A stretch of 64,000 bases of DNA, from NCBI RefSeq assembly GCF_013112485.1, contig NZ_JABFHG010000003.1, positions 1 through 64,000 of the forward strand, given 5' to 3'. The notes beneath the pieces are model-generated. The model was not told where the DNA came from and ran no database searches. It worked only from the letters and a program-made list of their open reading frames with translations. Positions 1-7,201 of the stretch are shown here, piece after piece (within the stretch, counting starts at the first letter, position 1; each line of letters opens with the position of its first letter). This stretch comes from Roseicella sp. DB1501. GTDB taxonomy: Bacteria > Pseudomonadota > Alphaproteobacteria > Acetobacterales > Acetobacteraceae. Position numbers and translations under genes: made by a program.

Positions 1-128
1 GCGATACCCGACACCCTTCGCGTCGTCGTTAACGCTATCCATAACGTCGACCTGAAGCTCCTCGCTCCAGGCCGACCCAGCACATTCAGGCCTCACCTCG
101 GAAGATGGGCCTCGTCGCCGCGCTTACG

Positions 129-962
129 ATGGATGGGATGTGGACCAAGGAGCACCGTGCGCGGCAGACGGCGTTTGATCGTCGGCGGCGCTATCCGACC
201 GATTTGACGGACGAGGAATGGGCTGCGTTGCAGCCGCTGCTGCCGCCTCCTGCAGGACGTGGCAGGCCGCCGAGCGCGGACATGCGGGAGATGCTGAACG
301 CAATCCGCTACCTGGCCCGCGCGGGCTGCGGCTGGCGGATGCTGCCGGTGCATTTCGGGCCGTGGCAGACGGTGTACTGGTGGTTCCGACGCTTCGCCCG
401 GCGCCTGTTGTTCCAGACCATCCACGACATTGCGCTGATGCTGGACCGCGAGCGACAAGGCCGGGAGGCCAGCCCAAGCGGAGGCGTGCTCGACAGCCAG
501 ACGGTGAAGGCGCCGCACGCGCCTGACGGCGGGGGCTACGACGCCGCCAAGCGGATCAAGGGGCGCAAGCGGCATGTCGCCGTGGATACGGATGGGCGCC
601 TGCTGATGGTCAACCTGACCCCAGCTGACATCCAGGACGCGGCCGGGGCGGAGCGGATCATCGAGGCGGTGCGTAAGCGCTGGCCTTGGCTGAAGCATCT
701 GTTTGCTGACGGCGCCTACGATCGGGGCAAGCTGATGAGCCGGGCCGCCTACCGCGACTTCATCATCGAGATCGTCCGCAAGCTGGCCGACCAGAAGGGC
801 TTCCATGTCCTGTCCAGACGCTGGGTGGTCGAGCGGACCTTCGGCTGGATGACGCGCTGGCGCCGCCTCGTCCGTGACTACGAGCGCCGCTGCGACGTCA
901 GCGAAGCCATGATCCGCGTCAGTCTCGGCGCGCTCCTGCTCCGGCGCGTCGCTCACCCGTAG
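129..962 (+). CDS. IS5-family transposase
   Basis: This is a DDE transposase that would cut and paste its own insertion sequence. It has the IS5-type order: an N-terminal DUF4096-like region (YPTDLTDEEW, then RYLARAGCGWRMLP), a first Asp in LDSQTVKAP, a second in FADGAYDRG, and the C-terminal Glu in WVVERTFGWMTRWRRL. Three in-frame ATGs lie close together (105, 129, 138). I chose 129 because the conserved part begins soon after it; it gives 277 residues. The frame is intact, so the element may be active. A right terminus is plausible near 970-985 (TTCTCAAACGGGGTCT), but I found no matching inverted copy in the 128 bases to the left. The left end may therefore lie outside the window or be degraded. 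Confidence 0.88.
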   Translation: MDGMWTKEHRARQTAFDRRRRYPTDLTDEEWAALQPLLPPPAGRGRPPSADMREMLNAIRYLARAGCGWRMLPVHFGPWQTVYWWFRRFARRLLFQTIHDIALMLDRERQGREASPSGGVLDSQTVKAPHAPDGGGYDAAKRIKGRKRHVAVDTDGRLLMVNLTPADIQDAAGAERIIEAVRKRWPWLKHLFADGAYDRGKLMSRAAYRDFIIEIVRKLADQKGFHVLSRRWVVERTFGWMTRWRRLVRDYERRCDVSEAMIRVSLGALLLRRVAHP

Positions 963-1175: not shown

Positions 1176-1250
1176 TGGAGCGGGCGAAGGGATTCGAACC
1201 CTCGACCCCAACCTTGGCAAGGTTGTGCTCTACCCCTGAGCTACGCCCGC
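1176..1250 (-). tRNA. tRNA-Gly (anticodon GCC)
   Basis: Read on the minus strand, this folds as a full cloverleaf. The acceptor stem GCGGGCG pairs with CGCCCGC. The anticodon arm is CAACC-TTGCCAA-GGTTG, giving anticodon GCC for GGC codons. The T arm is GAGGG-TTCGAAT-CCCTT. The discriminator base is T and CCA is encoded at 1178-1176. The total is 75 nt with CCA. Confidence 0.95.
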
Positions 1251-1333: not shown

Positions 1334-1813
1334 CTACCGCTTGATATCCGCCTCCACCACCACCTGGTGCCCGGCCGGACCCAGCAGGCCCCGCAGAGCC
1401 TCCAGCCCGGCGAGCCCGCAGGCGATGTCCTGCTCCCCGGTCCCGCCGGATAGGCCGATGCCGCCCACCACCGCCCCATCCACCACGATCGGGAAGCCGC
1501 CGACGAAGACCGAGAAGCGCCCCTCGAAGCTCCACTGGATGCCAAAGGCCTCGTTGCCGGGCAAAGCCGGCCCGTTCGGCGGCGCATTGAACAGATGGGT
1601 CGAACGCCGGTGGCAGGCCGCGGTGAAGGCCTTGTTCCAGGCGATCTGCGGCCCCGTCACCCGCGCCCCATCCATCCGCTCGAGCGCGAGCGGATGGCCG
1701 CCCTCGTCGCAGATGCAGACCGTCTCCGGCACCGCGATCGCCGCCGCCCTGGCCAGGGCACCCGCCACCATGGCGCGCGCCTCGGCCAGCTCCAGCTTGA
1801 AGGCCTGCCTCAT
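1334..1813 (-). CDS. GlcG/HbpS-family (DUF336) heme-binding-like protein
   Basis: A 159-residue protein of the GlcG/HbpS/PduO C-terminal family, small alpha/beta proteins some of which bind heme or corrinoids. Family features seen are an early VCICDEGGHPLALERMDGA stretch, a PALPGNEAFGIQ loop, and the Gly-rich GGFPIVVDGAVVGGIGLSGG followed by a long helix. There is no signal peptide, so it is probably cytosolic. It is the last gene of the operon that begins at 5166; its ATG overlaps the stop of the upstream ferredoxin by 4 bases. A cofactor-binding or redox role beside the di-iron protein is an inference. No enzymatic activity can be assigned from sequence alone. Confidence 0.8.
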   Translation of the reverse strand: MRQAFKLELAEARAMVAGALARAAAIAVPETVCICDEGGHPLALERMDGARVTGPQIAWNKAFTAACHRRSTHLFNAPPNGPALPGNEAFGIQWSFEGRFSVFVGGFPIVVDGAVVGGIGLSGGTGEQDIACGLAGLEALRGLLGPAGHQVVVEADIKR

Positions 1814-2142
1814 GGCTCGCGCACTCCCGTCGATGCCGCGGGACGCGCCCGCGCCACCGGGGGCGGCCAGGAGACGCTGACATCGCCCTTGAGGAAGGTC
1901 TGGCAGGCCATGCGCCAGCCCTCGGCGAATTCCGCTTCCGTCAGGTGCTTGCGCTCCTTCGGCTTGATCGCATCGGTGTTCTCGATCCCCTGCTCGATCC
2001 GGCACTTGCATGTGCCGCAGATGCCGCCGCCGCATTTGAAGGGAATGCCGCCCTTCTCGCGCAAGGACACGCGCAGCAGGTTGCTGTCCTCCGGCGCCTC
2101 CGCAGTCTTGCCGTCATTCGAGAGGAAGGTGACGGTGATCAT
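1810..2142 (-). CDS. 2Fe-2S ferredoxin (second of the operon)
   Basis: A 110-residue plant-type [2Fe-2S] ferredoxin. The cluster-binding loop reads CGGGICGTCKC (C-x4-C-x2-C) and a fourth Cys lies about 36 residues later in MACQTF, the usual spacing. It has no other domain, so it should act as a soluble one-electron carrier, presumably for an oxygenase. The gene overlaps its neighbours by 4 bases at each end (103-aa gene upstream, GlcG-like gene downstream), a sign of translational coupling. It is a clear paralogue of the ferredoxin at 2459-2788 but diverged outside the Cys loop, so the two probably have different partners or potentials. Confidence 0.9.
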   Translation of the reverse strand: MITVTFLSNDGKTAEAPEDSNLLRVSLREKGGIPFKCGGGICGTCKCRIEQGIENTDAIKPKERKHLTEAEFAEGWRMACQTFLKGDVSVSWPPPVARARPAASTGVREP

Positions 2143-2450
2143 GCCGCGGCGGCCACGGGCACGGGGCGCAGCGCGGCCCGGACGCTGCCGAAGGCGATGA
2201 GGTGCTCGAGCTCGTGGCGCGCCGCCTCCAGGCTCTCGAAACGTGGCAGGAATTTTGAGGGCACGAGGTTGAGCACCGGCGGCTCCGCCTCGTCGATGAC
2301 GCGGATCTTGGTCTCGCGCTCCAGCGCGGCGATGACGAAGCGCGCCTTCGCCGTGCCGCCGAACAGGTAGTCATAGGCCTCGACCGCCCGGATGCCGTCC
2401 ACCGGCTCGGTGCGGAACTGGCCGGGCTTGCTGGTCAGGATGACGAACAT
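2139..2450 (-). CDS. Unknown 103-aa protein between two ferredoxin genes
   Basis: I do not recognise this family. The product begins MFVILTSKPGQFRTEP and looks like a small alpha/beta protein. It has no signal peptide, membrane segment or Cys cluster; the charged middle (ALERETKIRVIDEAEPP) is followed by a helix (FESLEAARHELEHLIAFG). It sits between two ferredoxin genes, with a gap of 8 bases upstream and a 4-base overlap downstream, so it should be made together with the di-iron protein and the ferredoxins. A role as a small subunit, assembly factor or ferredoxin adaptor would fit the position, but nothing in the sequence shows it. Confidence 0.75.
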   Translation of the reverse strand: MFVILTSKPGQFRTEPVDGIRAVEAYDYLFGGTAKARFVIAALERETKIRVIDEAEPPVLNLVPSKFLPRFESLEAARHELEHLIAFGSVRAALRPVPVAAAA

Positions 2451-2458
2451 GGCGGGCC

Positions 2459-2788
2459 TCAGCGCTTCGGGAGGGCGGGCGCCGGCAGCGGCACGCCATC
2501 CTGGGTGAGCGTGACATCATGGTGCAGCCAGAGCTGGCAGGCGAGGCGAAGGCCCTGGCCGAGCTTCTCCTCGCCCAGCACCTTCTGCTCCTTCCAATTG
2601 GGCTCGGGCAATGCCGTGGCGCCTTGCAGGACCCGGCAGGTGCATTTGCCGCATTTGCCCATGCCGCAGCCGTAGCGGAGATGCGGCCAGGGAAACTTCC
2701 TGATGCCCGCGCGGACGACGAGGTTGGTGTTCTCCGGCATGTCCTCGGAGAAGGTCTCCTCGCCCTTGCGGAAGGTGACGATCGGCAT
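2459..2788 (-). CDS. 2Fe-2S ferredoxin (first of the operon)
   Basis: A 109-residue plant-type [2Fe-2S] ferredoxin with the loop YGCGMGKCGKCTC (C-x4-C-x2-C) and a fourth Cys in LACQLWLHHD. It follows the di-iron protein gene after 23 bases and is 8 bases ahead of the unknown 103-aa gene. Being immediately downstream of the oxygenase-like gene, it is the best candidate for its direct electron donor. No ferredoxin reductase gene is present in the cluster, so a housekeeping reductase elsewhere would be needed. Gene boundaries are clear; the partner is inferred from position. Confidence 0.9.
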   Translation of the reverse strand: MPIVTFRKGEETFSEDMPENTNLVVRAGIRKFPWPHLRYGCGMGKCGKCTCRVLQGATALPEPNWKEQKVLGEEKLGQGLRLACQLWLHHDVTLTQDGVPLPAPALPKR

Positions 2789-2811
2789 GCGGCGCCCTGC
2801 GCGGCCCCGCC

Positions 2812-3555
2812 TCAGGCGGCGAGCGGCATGTCGAGACCGAGCGCCGAGAGCGGCAGGTCCTTCTCGACATAGTCGCGGTAAAGCGCGGTGGTGTAGAGCA
2901 GCCGCATCTCGGCGCCGATCTCGCAGATCCTGAGGCAGCGCTGCTGCAGCTCCACCGTGTTCGCATGCTCCAGCACGATCTGGTAGCCGCGCTCGCCATG
3001 GATCTCGTCGGAGACGATGTGCAGGTCGAAGAACTCGACCTCCTCATCGGTGAAACCATAGGTCTCGCGCAGCGTCGGGGTCTGCCGGCGATAGATGCTC
3101 GGCACCTGGCTCTCGAGCCCGACGACGAGGCCCGCCACGGCGACGATCGGGTCCTCGCGCATTGCCACCGCATAGCACCAGGACTGCAAGGCGCGCGTGG
3201 TCGCCGACATGTTGTCCTCGTCCTCGACCCGCTCGCGCGTCGTGCCGCAGGATTCGGCGAAGCGGATCAGCAGGTCGGTGTGCCGGTCGCCGCCAATTTC
3301 CTCCTCGTACATGTTGGCGAGCAGGAAGTCCTTCGCCTCCACATACTTCGCCGGCATGCGAGCATAGACATAGCCGAGATAGTCGGCGAAGGGCCCGACA
3401 TAGTGGTAGTGGTTCTCCGCCCAGCGGGCGAGATGCGCGCGCGTCAGCTTGCCGGTCGCCCAGGCGACGCTGAAGGGCGACTTGTTGGCGCTCTTGCCCT
3501 TGATGGCGTTCTCGAGCGCGGTGCGGAACTCGTCGTGGTTCATCAGCTCGGGCAT
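2812..3555 (-). CDS. Heme-oxygenase-like di-iron oxidase/oxygenase (HDO/CADD-type)
   Basis: A 247-residue all-helical protein of the PqqC/TenA/CADD fold, usually annotated as iron-containing redox enzyme. From the chosen start, the expected di-iron ligands are all present: E85 and H92 (EEIGGDRH), E148 (GLESQVP), and H179, D183, H186 (HIVSDEIH). The E-x6-H and H-x3-D-x2-H spacings match those of CADD and other heme-oxygenase-like di-iron oxidases, and argue against cofactorless PqqC or thiaminase TenA. An in-frame GTG/ATG extension exists upstream (to 3591), but ATG 3555 has a GAGGAG ribosome site about 7 bases before it. The gene lies between a permease and a ferredoxin gene, so it probably oxidises or cleaves an imported small molecule. 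The substrate is unknown. Confidence 0.85.
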   Translation of the reverse strand: MPELMNHDEFRTALENAIKGKSANKSPFSVAWATGKLTRAHLARWAENHYHYVGPFADYLGYVYARMPAKYVEAKDFLLANMYEEEIGGDRHTDLLIRFAESCGTTRERVEDEDNMSATTRALQSWCYAVAMREDPIVAVAGLVVGLESQVPSIYRRQTPTLRETYGFTDEEVEFFDLHIVSDEIHGERGYQIVLEHANTVELQQRCLRICEIGAEMRLLYTTALYRDYVEKDLPLSALGLDMPLAA

Positions 3556-3603
3556 GACGGGTCTCCTCGGGGGGTCAGGACAGGCAGGCACGTCGCCGCG
3601 GGC

Positions 3604-5166
3604 TCACCAGAGCAGCACGGCGAGAAGGGTGGACAGGACAAGGCCGCCGCAGACCGGCAGGAACAGCATCCGCACCAGTTCCAGCACCGGCACGCGACAG
3701 AAGCCCGCGACCGCGATGAGCGAGGACCAGGCGATCAGCGTCCCGCCGCCGGTCCATACCGCGCCCATCTGCCCGACCGCGGCCAGCGTCGTCGGATGAA
3801 TGCCCGCGACCGGCCCGAGCGCGCCCGACAGCGCACCGGTCAGCGGCAGCCCGGCGAAGCCGGAGCCGTCGATGCCGGTGATCATGCCGACCAGCAGCAC
3901 GCCGAAGGCGACCACGGCCGGGCTGTGCGGGATCAGGTGGTCGACGGCGCGGATCACCTCGAAGAGCAGGTCGGGCGCCGCCGCCCCAGCCGGCAGGCCG
4001 AGGATGGCGCCTGCCGTCTCGCCGGCGCCGAGGAAGAAGAAGCCTGCGATCGGCAGCACCGTGCCCATGGCGCGGAAGGAGAAGACCAGGCCGTCAATGA
4101 TGTGGTCGGCCGCCGTGTGCATGGCCTTGGCGCCGTCGGCGGCGAAGCTGGCGATCAGCATCATCAGCGCCGCGGTGCCGCCGACCAGCGCCGCGGCATC
4201 ACCGCCCTTCAGCTCCGGCAGGCCGGGGATCAGCTTCGGCGCCAGCATGAAGAGGATGAGGCTGCCGAAGACCAGCGGCGTGGCGATCGCCAGCACCTGC
4301 CCCCAGCGGGCCGGGGCCGCGGCGGCGAGGGTCCCGCCGCCGGCCAGCGCCGCCTCGCCCGCAGCCGGCGGGTCGACCTCCAGGCCCTCCGCGGCCTGCA
4401 GCGCCAGGACGGACTTGTCGAAGGAGCCGATATTGGGCGCCACCTGCTCGCGCTGCGCGGCGAGGCCTTCCGCCAGGGAGGCGCCGGACTGCCAGCGATC
4501 CAGGTGGATCTGGCCCGGCCGCCGGATCTGCTGGCGGATGGCGAGATAGCCGAGCAGCAGCGCCACCGCGCCGGTGACGAGGGAAAGGACGAGCGCCTTG
4601 TCGGCGATCGCCGCCGCCGCCTCGGGCATGCCGGCGGCGCGCGCGCTGATGCCGGGCGCGACGCGGATCACGTAGTCGGAGGAGAGCGCCATGCCCTGGC
4701 CGGCGATGGCGATGGCCATGGCGGCGCCCATCGGCGGCAGGCCGGCGACGATCGCCGCCGGCAGCAGCGTCGCCGCCACCAGCGGCACGGCGGGGGTCGG
4801 CCAGAAGAACAGCGAGATCACGTAGGTGACCGCGACAATGACCGCGAAGGCGACATGGCCGCTGGTCATCACCCGGCGGAATGGGCGCACCATCAACTGG
4901 TCGGCGCCGAGGGCGCGCAGCGCGTTCAGCAGCGCGGTCATCAGCGCGATGACGAGGAAGATGCTGAACAGCTCCTTCGCCGCGACGAGGGAGCCGTTGA
5001 AGACCGCGATGGTGGCGCCGATCAGGCTGCCGGAGTAGGTGGCGGCGACGGCGAAGGTGGCGATGATCGCGGGGACGACAACATTGGCGCGCAGCGCCAT
5101 GGACAGCACGATGGCGGCGACGCCGAAGAGATAGACGGTATGCACCGAATCGAGCTGGACCTGCAT
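3604..5166 (-). CDS. Polytopic permease, ion-transporter superfamily (GntP/DcuC/CitMHS-like)
   Basis: A 520-residue membrane protein with about twelve hydrophobic segments in two halves, separated by a hydrophilic, Ala/Gly-rich loop around residues 225-300. The paired inverted hairpin regions with short Gly/Pro motifs (WPTPAVPLVAATLLPA in the first half, HSPAVVAFGVLLVGMITGIDGSG in the second) suggest the IT superfamily of organic-anion or proton symporters. I cannot name the subfamily or substrate. The start is ATG 5166 (MQVQLDSVH); the frame is open further upstream but that part looks non-coding. It is the first gene of the operon and divergent from the GntR regulator. It probably imports the substrate of the di-iron protein. 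Confidence 0.8.
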   Translation of the reverse strand: MQVQLDSVHTVYLFGVAAIVLSMALRANVVVPAIIATFAVAATYSGSLIGATIAVFNGSLVAAKELFSIFLVIALMTALLNALRALGADQLMVRPFRRVMTSGHVAFAVIVAVTYVISLFFWPTPAVPLVAATLLPAAIVAGLPPMGAAMAIAIAGQGMALSSDYVIRVAPGISARAAGMPEAAAAIADKALVLSLVTGAVALLLGYLAIRQQIRRPGQIHLDRWQSGASLAEGLAAQREQVAPNIGSFDKSVLALQAAEGLEVDPPAAGEAALAGGGTLAAAAPARWGQVLAIATPLVFGSLILFMLAPKLIPGLPELKGGDAAALVGGTAALMMLIASFAADGAKAMHTAADHIIDGLVFSFRAMGTVLPIAGFFFLGAGETAGAILGLPAGAAAPDLLFEVIRAVDHLIPHSPAVVAFGVLLVGMITGIDGSGFAGLPLTGALSGALGPVAGIHPTTLAAVGQMGAVWTGGGTLIAWSSLIAVAGFCRVPVLELVRMLFLPVCGGLVLSTLLAVLLW

Positions 5167-5237
5167 GCTCAGCGCATCCCGAACCCGGCGCCCGGCGCGG
5201 CGCCCACGGACCGCCCCGGCGGCGGATGGCGCATTCT

Positions 5238-5245
5238 CGTATACG
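5238..5245. promoter_or_regulatory. Putative GntR operator, copy 1
   Basis: The palindrome CGTATACG (flanks TCT and GCA) lies 72 bases upstream of the permease start, in the divergent region. Its GTATAC core fits the GT-n-AC dyads typical of FadR-subfamily GntR regulators. A second identical 8-mer occurs at 5396-5403. Confidence 0.5.
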
Positions 5246-5395
5246 GCAAATCCGCCTGTCAACGAGATTGCGCGTGCCTCCAGGCTGGAAAGCCGCATTC
5301 ATTGCATGGTTTTCGCGCATATATGCCAATATCAGGTGCAAATTGTGCCGATTTAGGGCATCAATCGGCAACGGCGTTCCGGCCTGGACGATTTC

Positions 5396-5403
5396 CGTAT
5401 ACG
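5396..5403. promoter_or_regulatory. Putative GntR operator, copy 2
   Basis: CGTATACG here is the centre of a 10-bp perfect palindrome, CCGTATACGG, 45 bases upstream of the GntR start codon. Position and identity to copy 1 suggest binding by the adjacent GntR protein, with autoregulation and control of the divergent operon. Confidence 0.55.
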
Positions 5404-5447
5404 GTATAGTCGCGGCAGAGCCACACTGGAGCCATGGTCAGGACCGG

Positions 5448-6149
5448 ATGAGCAGACGTCTCCCCCTCCCCCGTCCCATCAGGACCGGCAGCGCGCCGCT
5501 CAGCCAGCAGGCGCTGCAAAGCCTGCGCGAGGCGATCCTGGCCGGCCGCCTCGCCCCGGGCGAGCGGCTGGTCGAGGAGCGGCTCTCGACCGAGCTCGGC
5601 ATGTCCCGGGTGCCGATCCGCGAGGCGATCAAGCAACTCGTGGTCGAAGGCCTGGCGGTGCCGGCGGCGGATGCCCCAGGCGGCCGCGGCGCCCAGGTGG
5701 CGACCCTCTCCGCCGATGCCGCGGCGGAGCTGATCGAGGTGCGGGCGGTCCTCGAAGGGCTGAATGCCCGCCTCGCCGCCCGCAACCAGGCGCCGGACAA
5801 GCTCTCACGGATCGCGGCGCTGCTGGCCCGCGGCCGGACCTTGCCGGAGGAGGGCGCGGCCGAGGCGCGGGCGGAGCTGAACGCCGACTACCATGCGCTG
5901 CTGGCGGAGGCCGGCGCCAACCGCGTGCTGCAGGAACTGATGCGCCCCCTGCGCGAGCGGACGGAGATGGTGTTCCGCCGCAACAGCACCGAGCGCGCCG
6001 CGCTGGACTGGCAGGAACATGCGCTCATCCTGACGGCGGTCGCCGAGGGCGACGAGGAGCTGGCGGCGCTGCTCGCCGCCCGCCATGTCCGTCGGGCGGC
6101 GCGAGCGCCCCAAGCTCAGACCACCCAGGTTCAGGCCGCTAGATCATGA
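5448..6149 (+). CDS. GntR-family regulator, FadR/FCD subfamily
   Basis: A 233-residue transcription regulator. The N-terminal winged helix is clear (LREAILAGRLAPGERL, then LSTELGMSRVPIREAIKQLVVEGL). It is followed by an all-helical FCD-type ligand-binding domain from about residue 85 (AAAELIEVRAVLEGLNARLAA, and later DYHALLAEAGANRVL and DWQEHALILTAVAEGDEELAALLAARHV). ATG 5448 is used because it is the first start close to the conserved domain; the frame is open upstream. It is divergent from the permease/di-iron operon, and two CGTATACG palindromes lie between them. FCD regulators usually sense a small acid that is the substrate or an intermediate of the pathway they control. Confidence 0.88.
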   Translation: MSRRLPLPRPIRTGSAPLSQQALQSLREAILAGRLAPGERLVEERLSTELGMSRVPIREAIKQLVVEGLAVPAADAPGGRGAQVATLSADAAAELIEVRAVLEGLNARLAARNQAPDKLSRIAALLARGRTLPEEGAAEARAELNADYHALLAEAGANRVLQELMRPLRERTEMVFRRNSTERAALDWQEHALILTAVAEGDEELAALLAARHVRRAARAPQAQTTQVQAARS

Positions 6150-6241: not shown

Positions 6242-7201
6242 CTAGTTCGCGCGAAGATTGACCGCGCGGATCACCCCCAGCCAGAGCGCGCGGTCCTTCG
6301 CCAGGCGCCGCGTGATGGTCGCTCGATCCTCGAAGCGCGGCGTCAGGCCGCCCTCCGCCATGCGATGGACCAGCGCCGGGTCGCTCATCGCCTGCCGCAC
6401 CGCCGCCTCGAGCTGATCGACCAGCGCCGGCGTCATGCCCTTCTGGCCGCAGAGTGCGAACCAGCCGACGACGTTGAAGCCCAGCACCAGCCGCGACAGC
6501 GGCGGCACTTCGGGGAAGAGCGGGAAGGGCTCATCGTCGGAGATCGCCAGCAGCCGCAGCGCACCTTCCTGCACCTGGCGGGTCACGTCGGCCATGTTGG
6601 TGATCATGAAATCGGTGCGGCCGCCGAGGATGTCGACGATGGCCGGGCTCGCCCCGCGATAGGGCACGTGCACCATGTCGAGGCCGGCCTTCTGCTTCAG
6701 CAGCTCGCCCTGCAGGTGCTGCGCCGAGCCGACGCCGGCCGAGCCGAAGGTCACCTGGCCGGGCCGCGCCTTCGCCGCCGCCAGAACGTCCTGCACGCTG
6801 CGATAGGGCCCGTTCGCCGCGACGACGAAGCCGTAGGAGGACAGCGCGACATTGGCGATGGGCAGCAGCTCGGCGCCCGGATCGAGCGGCAGGTTGGCGT
6901 TGATGAGCTGCGGCGTGATGGACATGGTGCTCATCGGGCAGACGAAGAGCGTCGTGCCGTCCGGCGCGCTGCGCGCCGTCTCCTGCGCCGCGACCACGCC
7001 ATTGGCGCCGGTGCGGTTCTCCACCACGGCGCGCGCGCCGATGATCGGCCCGATGGCCTCGGCGAGGAGCCGGGTGGCGAAATCCGAGGAGCCGCCGGCC
7101 GAGGCGCCGCTCAGGATCCGCACCGTGCGGTCCTGCGCCATTGCCGGCAGCGCGGCGAGCATGAGGACGAGCAGGGTCGTGACGAAGGGGCGTCGCCTCA
7201 T
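6242..7201 (-). CDS. TctC/Bug-family periplasmic substrate-binding protein
   Basis: A 319-residue periplasmic receptor of the tripartite tricarboxylate transporter family. A signal peptide is visible (VTTLLVLMLAALPAMAQ). The mature part has the family pattern: RTVRILSGASAGGSSDFATRLLAE, then VVENRTGANGVVAAQ, FGSAGVGSAQHLQGELL and VHVPYRGASPAIVDILGG. These receptors bind small carboxylates or related compounds. The start is ATG 7201, preceded by GGGAGGAG at a suitable distance; the frame is open back to 7228. No TctA/TctB membrane genes are near, which is common for this family, so it may serve a distant transporter or act as a sensor receptor. Confidence 0.88.
   Translation of the reverse strand: MRRRPFVTTLLVLMLAALPAMAQDRTVRILSGASAGGSSDFATRLLAEAIGPIIGARAVVENRTGANGVVAAQETARSAPDGTTLFVCPMSTMSITPQLINANLPLDPGAELLPIANVALSSYGFVVAANGPYRSVQDVLAAAKARPGQVTFGSAGVGSAQHLQGELLKQKAGLDMVHVPYRGASPAIVDILGGRTDFMITNMADVTRQVQEGALRLLAISDDEPFPLFPEVPPLSRLVLGFNVVGWFALCGQKGMTPALVDQLEAAVRQAMSDPALVHRMAEGGLTPRFEDRATITRRLAKDRALWLGVIRAVNLRAN

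Follow-up and report, generated by a model that had tools for sequence, protein, structure and literature searches.

The first 64,000 nucleotides of contig NZ_JABFHG010000003.1 from the alphaproteobacterium Roseicella sp. DB1501 (the whole stretch analyzed here, hereafter the window) contain a six-gene minus-strand operon at positions 1334–5166, which encodes a predicted heme-oxygenase-like di-iron oxidase/oxygenase (HDO), two [2Fe-2S] ferredoxins, a small protein designated ORF103, a GlcG-like protein, and a membrane permease. We propose, with a probability of about 0.6, that this operon serves to take up a small, probably nitrogenous carboxylate and to carry out its first oxidation with a multi-component oxygenase based on the HDO fold. 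More tentatively, and in our judgment at somewhat worse than even odds, the system would be the first multi-component oxygenase on a heme-oxygenase-like fold: a catabolic enzyme with two dedicated ferredoxins and an obligatory ORF103 effector of new fold, convergent with systems of the soluble methane monooxygenase (sMMO) type, that probably opens or oxidizes a nitrogenous natural compound in an undescribed pathway. The operon grouping is beyond chance, since 79 loci show it, in what were scored as 25 arrangements. A preliminary description of this DNA had reported six same-strand genes with gaps of at most 48 bases or short overlaps, and its coordinates and spacing are correct: two overlaps of 4 bases each and gaps of 8, 23, and 48 bases.

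HDO Retains Six Predicted Di-Iron Ligands and Lacks the Residues Sacrificed by CADD

The hdo gene (2812–3555, minus strand) encodes a 247-residue protein that matches the Pfam family Haem_oxygenas_2 at 130.1 bits. Among solved structures, the nearest in sequence are CADD/CT610 (PDB 1rcw and 8va9; E = 9.7e-18), followed by other 4-aminobenzoate (pABA) synthases (E = 6e-15) and then by a PqqC (E = 1.5e-9). Residues E85, H92, E148, H179, D183, and H186 align with CADD positions 81, 88, 142, 174, 178, and 181, and all six ligands, three histidines and three carboxylates, are invariant in 81 of 81 alignment rows (80 genes, the window's own gene having been entered twice), in agreement with the six di-iron ligands first assigned from the window sequence. 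An AlphaFold2 model of HDO, built from a 28-row alignment, is all-helical with a predicted local distance difference test score (pLDDT) of 88.2, and a Foldseek search with this model returns PqqC as the best match, followed by CtCADD, UndA, HrmI, and FlcD. By its ligands and predicted fold, the 247-residue protein belongs to the HDO superfamily.

The preliminary description also called the protein CADD-like, which holds for the ligand spacing and fails for the residues that CADD spends in catalysis. CADD consumes its own Tyr27 and Lys152 in its reaction, according to the available portion of the published account (PMC11965152), while all 81 rows (80 genes) have Ser29 and Gln158 at the matching HDO positions. 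We therefore rejected an identity as pABA synthase; the score against the CADD model TIGR04305 (99.9 bits) also lies below its cut-off of 200. Membership in PqqC was rejected as well (TIGR02111, 48.2 bits against a cut-off of 240).

Compared between the window and a Cupriavidus locus (L041), HDO has 88% identity, against 62% for the permease, 61% for FdxA, 71% for FdxB, 71% for the GlcG-like protein, and 55% for ORF103, while the six genes show similar divergence at four-fold degenerate sites (0.37–0.44). Constraint at the protein level is much stronger on HDO than on its partners, as would be expected, though this is not proven, of an enzyme with several docking surfaces. Recent horizontal transfer was rejected as the cause of the 88% identity, since the four-fold-site differences of hdo against Bradyrhizobium, Achromobacter, and Cupriavidus (0.41, 0.48, and 0.39) are like those of the five partner genes (0.50–0.59, 0.27–0.56, and 0.37–0.44, respectively) in two comparisons and somewhat lower in one. 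In two regions (L031 and L055) hdo is present twice, with DNA identities of 98.3 and 99.2% between the copies, one of which lies near the ferredoxin block and the other near GlcG and reductase genes.

Two Ferredoxins and ORF103 Accompany HDO across Genomes

A single peptide-pattern scan of 84,980 species genomes yielded 491 stretches encoding relatives. The 79 loci compared here derive from the best 80 of these candidates, a choice that favors close relatives, and several of them end at contig edges. Gene presence and the 25 arrangements were scored by tblastn, and some arrangements differ only through contig ends or a distant paralog. The hosts, as labeled in record titles, some of which are labels of metagenome-assembled genomes, are distantly related soil bacteria and include Acetobacteraceae, Bradyrhizobium, Achromobacter, Cupriavidus, and others. 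In 78 of the 79 loci hdo has fdxA, orf103, and fdxB in its vicinity; in the exception (L077) the contig begins 538 bases before hdo, and its Cupriavidus relatives carry the ferredoxin block about 4 kb away. As scored, the loci further contain glcG (74), gntR (71), the permease (64), an aldehyde dehydrogenase (60), a reductase (40), TauE (39), an OCD-family gene (16), and GGT (6). Two of the 6 GGT matches and 1 of the 60 aldehyde dehydrogenase matches are distant paralogs (L028, L067, and L074), the aldehyde dehydrogenase match in L074 being only 28% identical.

The link between the 103-residue protein and HDO suggested by the window extends to whole genomes. In the family of the L041 genome, ORF103 and HDO (E up to 1e-15) each occur in 47 of 249 genomes, and these genomes are identical; in the window's own family the counts are 14 and 15 of 150, the fifteenth HDO genome holding a distant, 26%-identical homolog and no ORF103. 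ORF103 and close HDO thus share the same 61 of 399 genomes in the two families, and neither ever occurs alone (the genome lists were matched by eye). A class-wide sample of 385 genomes contained ORF103 in the window's own genome only and distant HDOs (≤46% identity) in 11 further genomes, and within the genus the set is absent from one of two other sampled genomes. The set is distributed patchily, yet its genes stay together. In L145, the most divergent cluster seen (HDO 75% identical), hdo, fdxA, orf103, and fdxB are retained, with no match to GlcG, permease, or GntR within its 19.5 kb, and these four genes are therefore likely to be the irreducible core. Three ORF103 matches contain one internal TGA (G389, G609, and G728); that in L064 (G389) is taken to be the gene's own stop, with the match running one residue beyond it.

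Both ferredoxins match Pfam Fer2 (53.4 and 36 bits). FdxA (2459–2788, minus strand, 109 residues) is of the plant type, with its cluster cysteines at C41, C46, C49, and C84, and FdxB (1810–2142, minus strand, 110 residues) has them at C37, C42, C45, and C80. The CX4CX2C...C pattern is kept in 80 of 80 FdxA rows and 78 of 78 FdxB rows, in which the window is counted twice and copies cut by contig ends are left out.

Gene orf103 (2139–2450, minus strand) encodes 103 residues and is a candidate coupling or effector subunit. The protein has no Pfam family above cut-off and no NCBIfam family, no solved structure matches its sequence below E = 1.1, and nine columns are invariant across 29 aligned sequences. 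Its AlphaFold2 model is confident (pLDDT 90.7), mostly beta with one long helix; Foldseek finds no PDB match at E ≤ 0.001 (best E = 0.3) and, among viral models, nothing above chance level (best E = 0.12). Judged against the PDB and viral models, the predicted fold is provisionally new.

This pattern of retention bears on an explanation in which HDO works alone or with general reductants, with the ferredoxins and ORF103 serving a second enzyme or the delivery of iron to HDO. Other HDOs are described as running on small reductants or mediators in the accessible part of one report (PMC13185094), and the ferredoxin block and hdo are separate or divergent in several lineages. Nevertheless, the four-gene core of L145, the shared set of 61 genomes, and the absence of a further oxygenase among the neighbors typed, a typing that covered chosen genes only, make such a division of labor unlikely.

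A GntR Regulator and a Common DNA Site

The gntR gene (5448–6149, plus strand) is divergent from the permease gene across a 281-base gap and encodes a 233-residue regulator of the FCD subfamily (Pfam GntR, 51.6 bits against a cut-off of 27; FCD, 75.5 against 24.3), present in 71 of the 79 loci. FCD-GntR regulators are typical of catabolic genes. The hexamer GTATAC occurs just twice in the 64-kb window, and both copies lie in this gap: one, at 5239, within the operator-like site TCGTATACGG (5237–5246), overlaps a promoter-like sequence for the operon, and the other, at 5397, within the operator-like palindrome CCGTATACGG (5395–5404), which ends 43 bases before the start of gntR. The promoter-like sequence is on the minus strand, its first hexamer starting at 5262 and its second ending at 5233, and was the single match of a scan for which shuffled sequence gave a mean of 0.3.

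GTATAC lies between genes in 78 of the 79 loci, and no other hexamer reaches as many, though by enrichment ratio it ranks third, behind TATACT, which overlaps the same sites, and ATTAAA. The 101,045 positions that no known gene of the set covers contain it 258 times and the 917,944 positions outside contain it 39 times, a 58-fold enrichment that is partly compositional, gaps being richer in A+T than genes. In the loci inspected, hdo, permease, fdxA, gntR, TauE, and aldehyde dehydrogenase genes have the site in front of them, as do amidase, porin, and ABC-transporter genes in further lineages. Across the window's own genome the extended form YCGTATACGG gives three forward and two reverse matches, no excess over a backwards control (1 + 3), so only its placement is informative; of the three places concerned, two are the window sites, and the third lies inside a longer open frame. 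Control by the GntR regulator, which the preliminary description had proposed, gains backing from this conserved operator-like sequence: the protein probably acts on the set through the GTATAC sites, with repression as the simplest inference.

Adjoining gntR is a gene for a TctC-type solute-binding protein (6242–7201, minus strand), and TctC genes weakly similar to it sit inside the cluster in two beta-proteobacterial metagenome-assembled genomes (L057 and L069). We rejected it as a member of the set, as a counterpart is near the set in L002 and not in L004–L006, L003 being too short. At the other end, an IS4/IS5-type DDE transposase gene (DUF4096 + DDE_Tnp_1; 105–962, plus strand) is close to the downstream end of the operon, with a tRNA-Gly (gcc) gene between them (1176–1250, minus strand).

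Accessory Genes Point to a Catabolic Setting

The permease (3604–5166, minus strand, 520 residues) matched no family above cut-off in Pfam or NCBIfam; two of 20 relatives match DUF969 weakly, the window permease not being among them. Other transport genes beside the set in relatives encode major facilitator superfamily proteins, NMT1-type ABC parts, and porins. The GlcG-like protein (1334–1813, minus strand, 159 residues; GlcG/HbpS-like) is a clear DUF336 member (PF03928, 115.6 bits against a cut-off of 25).

Relatives also carry enzymes that could act before and after HDO. The cluster reductase contains Fer2, FAD, and NAD domains. Four relatives' aldehyde dehydrogenases that were tested are nearest, below cut-offs, to NCBIfam models of alpha-ketoglutaric semialdehyde or 2,5-dioxovalerate dehydrogenases. 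Among solved structures, the Cupriavidus enzyme is closest to betaine aldehyde dehydrogenases. For the OCD-family gene, the nearest NCBIfam model is that of pyrroline/piperideine-2-carboxylate reductase, again below cut-off, and the best solved match is 3hdj, a 'probable ornithine cyclodeaminase'. In one locus (L056:11811–12608, plus strand) an aspartate dehydrogenase gene lies between fdxB and gntR, while the set of other lineages has an OCD-type gene. Among 93 loci, of which 12 (L140–L151) were hand-picked, mostly from weaker ORF103 matches, an AS amidase is present in 17 and an alpha/beta hydrolase in 11 (one at 24% identity); GGT and isochorismatase families are also among the relatives' amide and ester hydrolases, and these families are unrelated to each other. 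One metagenome-assembled genome encodes an in-frame fusion of FdxB with an alpha/beta hydrolase (L057:7708–9033, minus strand), a hydrolase type that follows fdxB in other lineages.

Because non-homologous C–N hydrolases and imino-acid dehydrogenases have been recruited repeatedly, we infer that the substrate probably contains nitrogen. The weak DUF969 matches of 2 of 20 permeases may indicate a compound related to 5-oxoproline, to which DUF969 is presumably linked, and the nearest solved aldehyde dehydrogenases may indicate a betaine-like one. N-heterocycles may also be considered, from molybdenum hydroxylase genes upstream of hdo in one region (L009:4142–7653); this region is shared with four related metagenome-assembled genomes and is thus not independent evidence for such substrates.

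The same accessory genes were weighed under a variant of our proposal, in which HDO removes a methyl or one-carbon group (by N- or O-demethylation or C–C cleavage) and releases formaldehyde, with the GlcG-like protein sensing or binding the aldehyde. EfgA, another DUF336 protein, binds formaldehyde (PMC8153426, in the part available), and its structure (6bws) ranks second among the solved matches of the GlcG-like protein; an aldehyde dehydrogenase is near in 60 of the 79 loci as scored, and the betaine aldehyde dehydrogenases nearest to the Cupriavidus enzyme belong to methylated-amine metabolism. The best solved match is 2a2l rather than EfgA, however, the same part of that source places close EfgA homologs in a separate, mostly methylotroph clade, the four tested dehydrogenases are nearest to the NCBIfam models named above, and no formaldehyde-handling genes appear among the neighbors typed. 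Formaldehyde release is on balance improbable.

A biosynthetic operon, in which HDO would make a metabolite in the manner of CADD, UndA, BesC, or MboA and the membrane protein would export it, is likewise improbable. The HDO roles given in the available sections of a 2026 review are biosynthetic (PMC13108848). The neighbors that recur here are hydrolases, aldehyde dehydrogenase, dehydrogenases, porins, binding proteins, and transporters, and among those typed neither a ligase nor a carrier protein accompanies the set; moreover, the residues that CADD sacrifices are absent, and the FCD-GntR regulator is of the kind typical of catabolic genes. Finally, a metal-free TenA or PqqC relative of other function is highly improbable, for although TENA_THI-4 passes its Pfam cut-off (PF03070, 41.1 against 22 bits) and PqqC is the top Foldseek match, the protein scores as an HDO, as first described (130.1 bits for Haem_oxygenas_2; 99.9 for the CADD model versus 48.2 for PqqC), with six metal ligands invariant in 80 genes.

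A Proposed Multi-Component Oxygenase

From the gene content, the conserved ligands and cysteines, the co-occurrence of the genes, and their common DNA site, we infer a course of functional steps, a path for electrons, roles for ORF103 and the GlcG-like protein, and the nature of the substrate. The compound would enter through the permease, and either it or a product would lift GntR repression at the GTATAC sites. Electrons would flow from NADH to a reductase, which many relatives encode in the cluster and the window operon does not, then to FdxA and FdxB, and finally to the di-iron HDO for the activation of O2. ORF103 would bind HDO or a ferredoxin and couple or gate electron delivery. The oxygenated product would break into an amide and/or an aldehyde plus an imino acid, to be processed by an aldehyde dehydrogenase, an imino-acid dehydrogenase, and amide hydrolases. 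Many relatives have genes for these enzymes next to the set, and this genome would need to supply them from elsewhere. The GlcG-like protein may bind or process a reactive intermediate.

Several points weigh against this proposal. The available sections of the review (PMC13108848) state that the HDOs studied to date do not depend on a protein effector, and ORF103 has no similarity to known effectors in Pfam, solved structures, or Foldseek searches. Residues 81–90 of the HDO model, including E85, have a mean pLDDT of only 61, so the di-iron site is not well modelled; the structural modeling envisaged in the preliminary description yielded HDO-fold matches at good overall confidence and fell short in this segment. 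The window operon has no reductase, aldehyde dehydrogenase, or hydrolases, the best match to the cluster reductase in its own genome is 21% identical with no clear ortholog, and the aldehyde dehydrogenases there that are nearest to the cluster's are at most 41% identical. The path is therefore incomplete here, and general enzymes would have to supply those steps. Uptake and oxidative breakdown, as originally suggested, finds backing in the transporters, aldehyde dehydrogenases, amidases, and imino-acid dehydrogenases of relatives, and none in the window operon as regards the reductase and downstream enzymes. The accessory hydrolases are unrelated and patchy, so the nitrogenous substrate has to be deduced.

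If the proposed oxygenase is real, the no-effector rule for HDOs, as far as the review states it, would be broken by a catabolic member accompanied by two ferredoxins and a small conserved partner, and the multi-component solution would have arisen separately in a second di-iron fold. With 491 stretches in 84,980 species genomes the set is widespread, so the compound is probably common in the habitats of these bacteria, and the system is directly testable, given a known list of parts, a likely operator, and hosts that can be cultured.

Comparison with Known Systems

Word searches of open-licence PubMed Central found no paper on this gene set, consistent with the preliminary description, whose author knew of no described pathway with these genes. 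About a dozen HDOs have been functionally validated, according to the portion of the 2026 review available (PMC13108848). CADD is the closest solved sequence, its six ligand positions coincide with those of HDO, and its length is similar, whereas HDO has Ser29 and Gln158 in place of Tyr27 and Lys152, falls short of the CADD model cut-off (99.9 against 200 bits), and has other neighbors. For the GlcG-like protein, the known relatives are GlcG, HbpS, PduO-C, and EfgA; it is a clear member of their DUF336 family, and no paper was found that links a member to an HDO; a search on NahX, a further DUF336 protein, added nothing of use.

The view that a dedicated ferredoxin pair is unusual needs qualification. 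MboA/MboB, the mangotoxin acetylenase and its reductase, are described as possibly the first characterized dedicated pair of HDO and redox partner, MboB being a flavin/Fe2S2 NAD(P)H reductase (PMC13185094, as far as available). A dedicated redox partner for an HDO is thus already published, while the ferredoxin pair with ORF103 is not in the papers found. Both systems have an HDO with a gene-linked redox partner, here the two ferredoxins kept near hdo in 78 of 79 loci, and the reductase of 40 of 79 relatives has flavin, NAD(P)H, and Fe2S2 parts as does MboB in that account. MboAB, in contrast, is biosynthetic and acts on a peptide, with no stand-alone ferredoxin or ORF103-like protein mentioned in the part of the report available (PMC13185094); in the present set ORF103 and the ferredoxin pair are the constant partners, and only some loci add a reductase. 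A sister cluster (L100:7929–10650) has a Rieske protein divergent from an HDO that is 44–46% identical, together with GlcG-like and GntR genes and two GTATAC sites near the hdo start, and has no match to FdxA, ORF103, or FdxB. This one genome suggests that electron donors have been swapped around an HDO–GlcG pair.

The sMMO and its relatives offer the nearest functional analogy, combining a di-iron enzyme, a ferredoxin/reductase chain, and a small coupling protein, a manner of working that we propose by analogy for the present set. Their hydroxylase is ferritin-like, whereas the HDO model is heme-oxygenase-like, and ORF103 has no detected similarity to MmoB-type effectors. Relative to the HDOs characterized to date, as far as the available parts of these sources describe them, the features that appear new are the predicted multi-component make-up and the probable catabolic setting.

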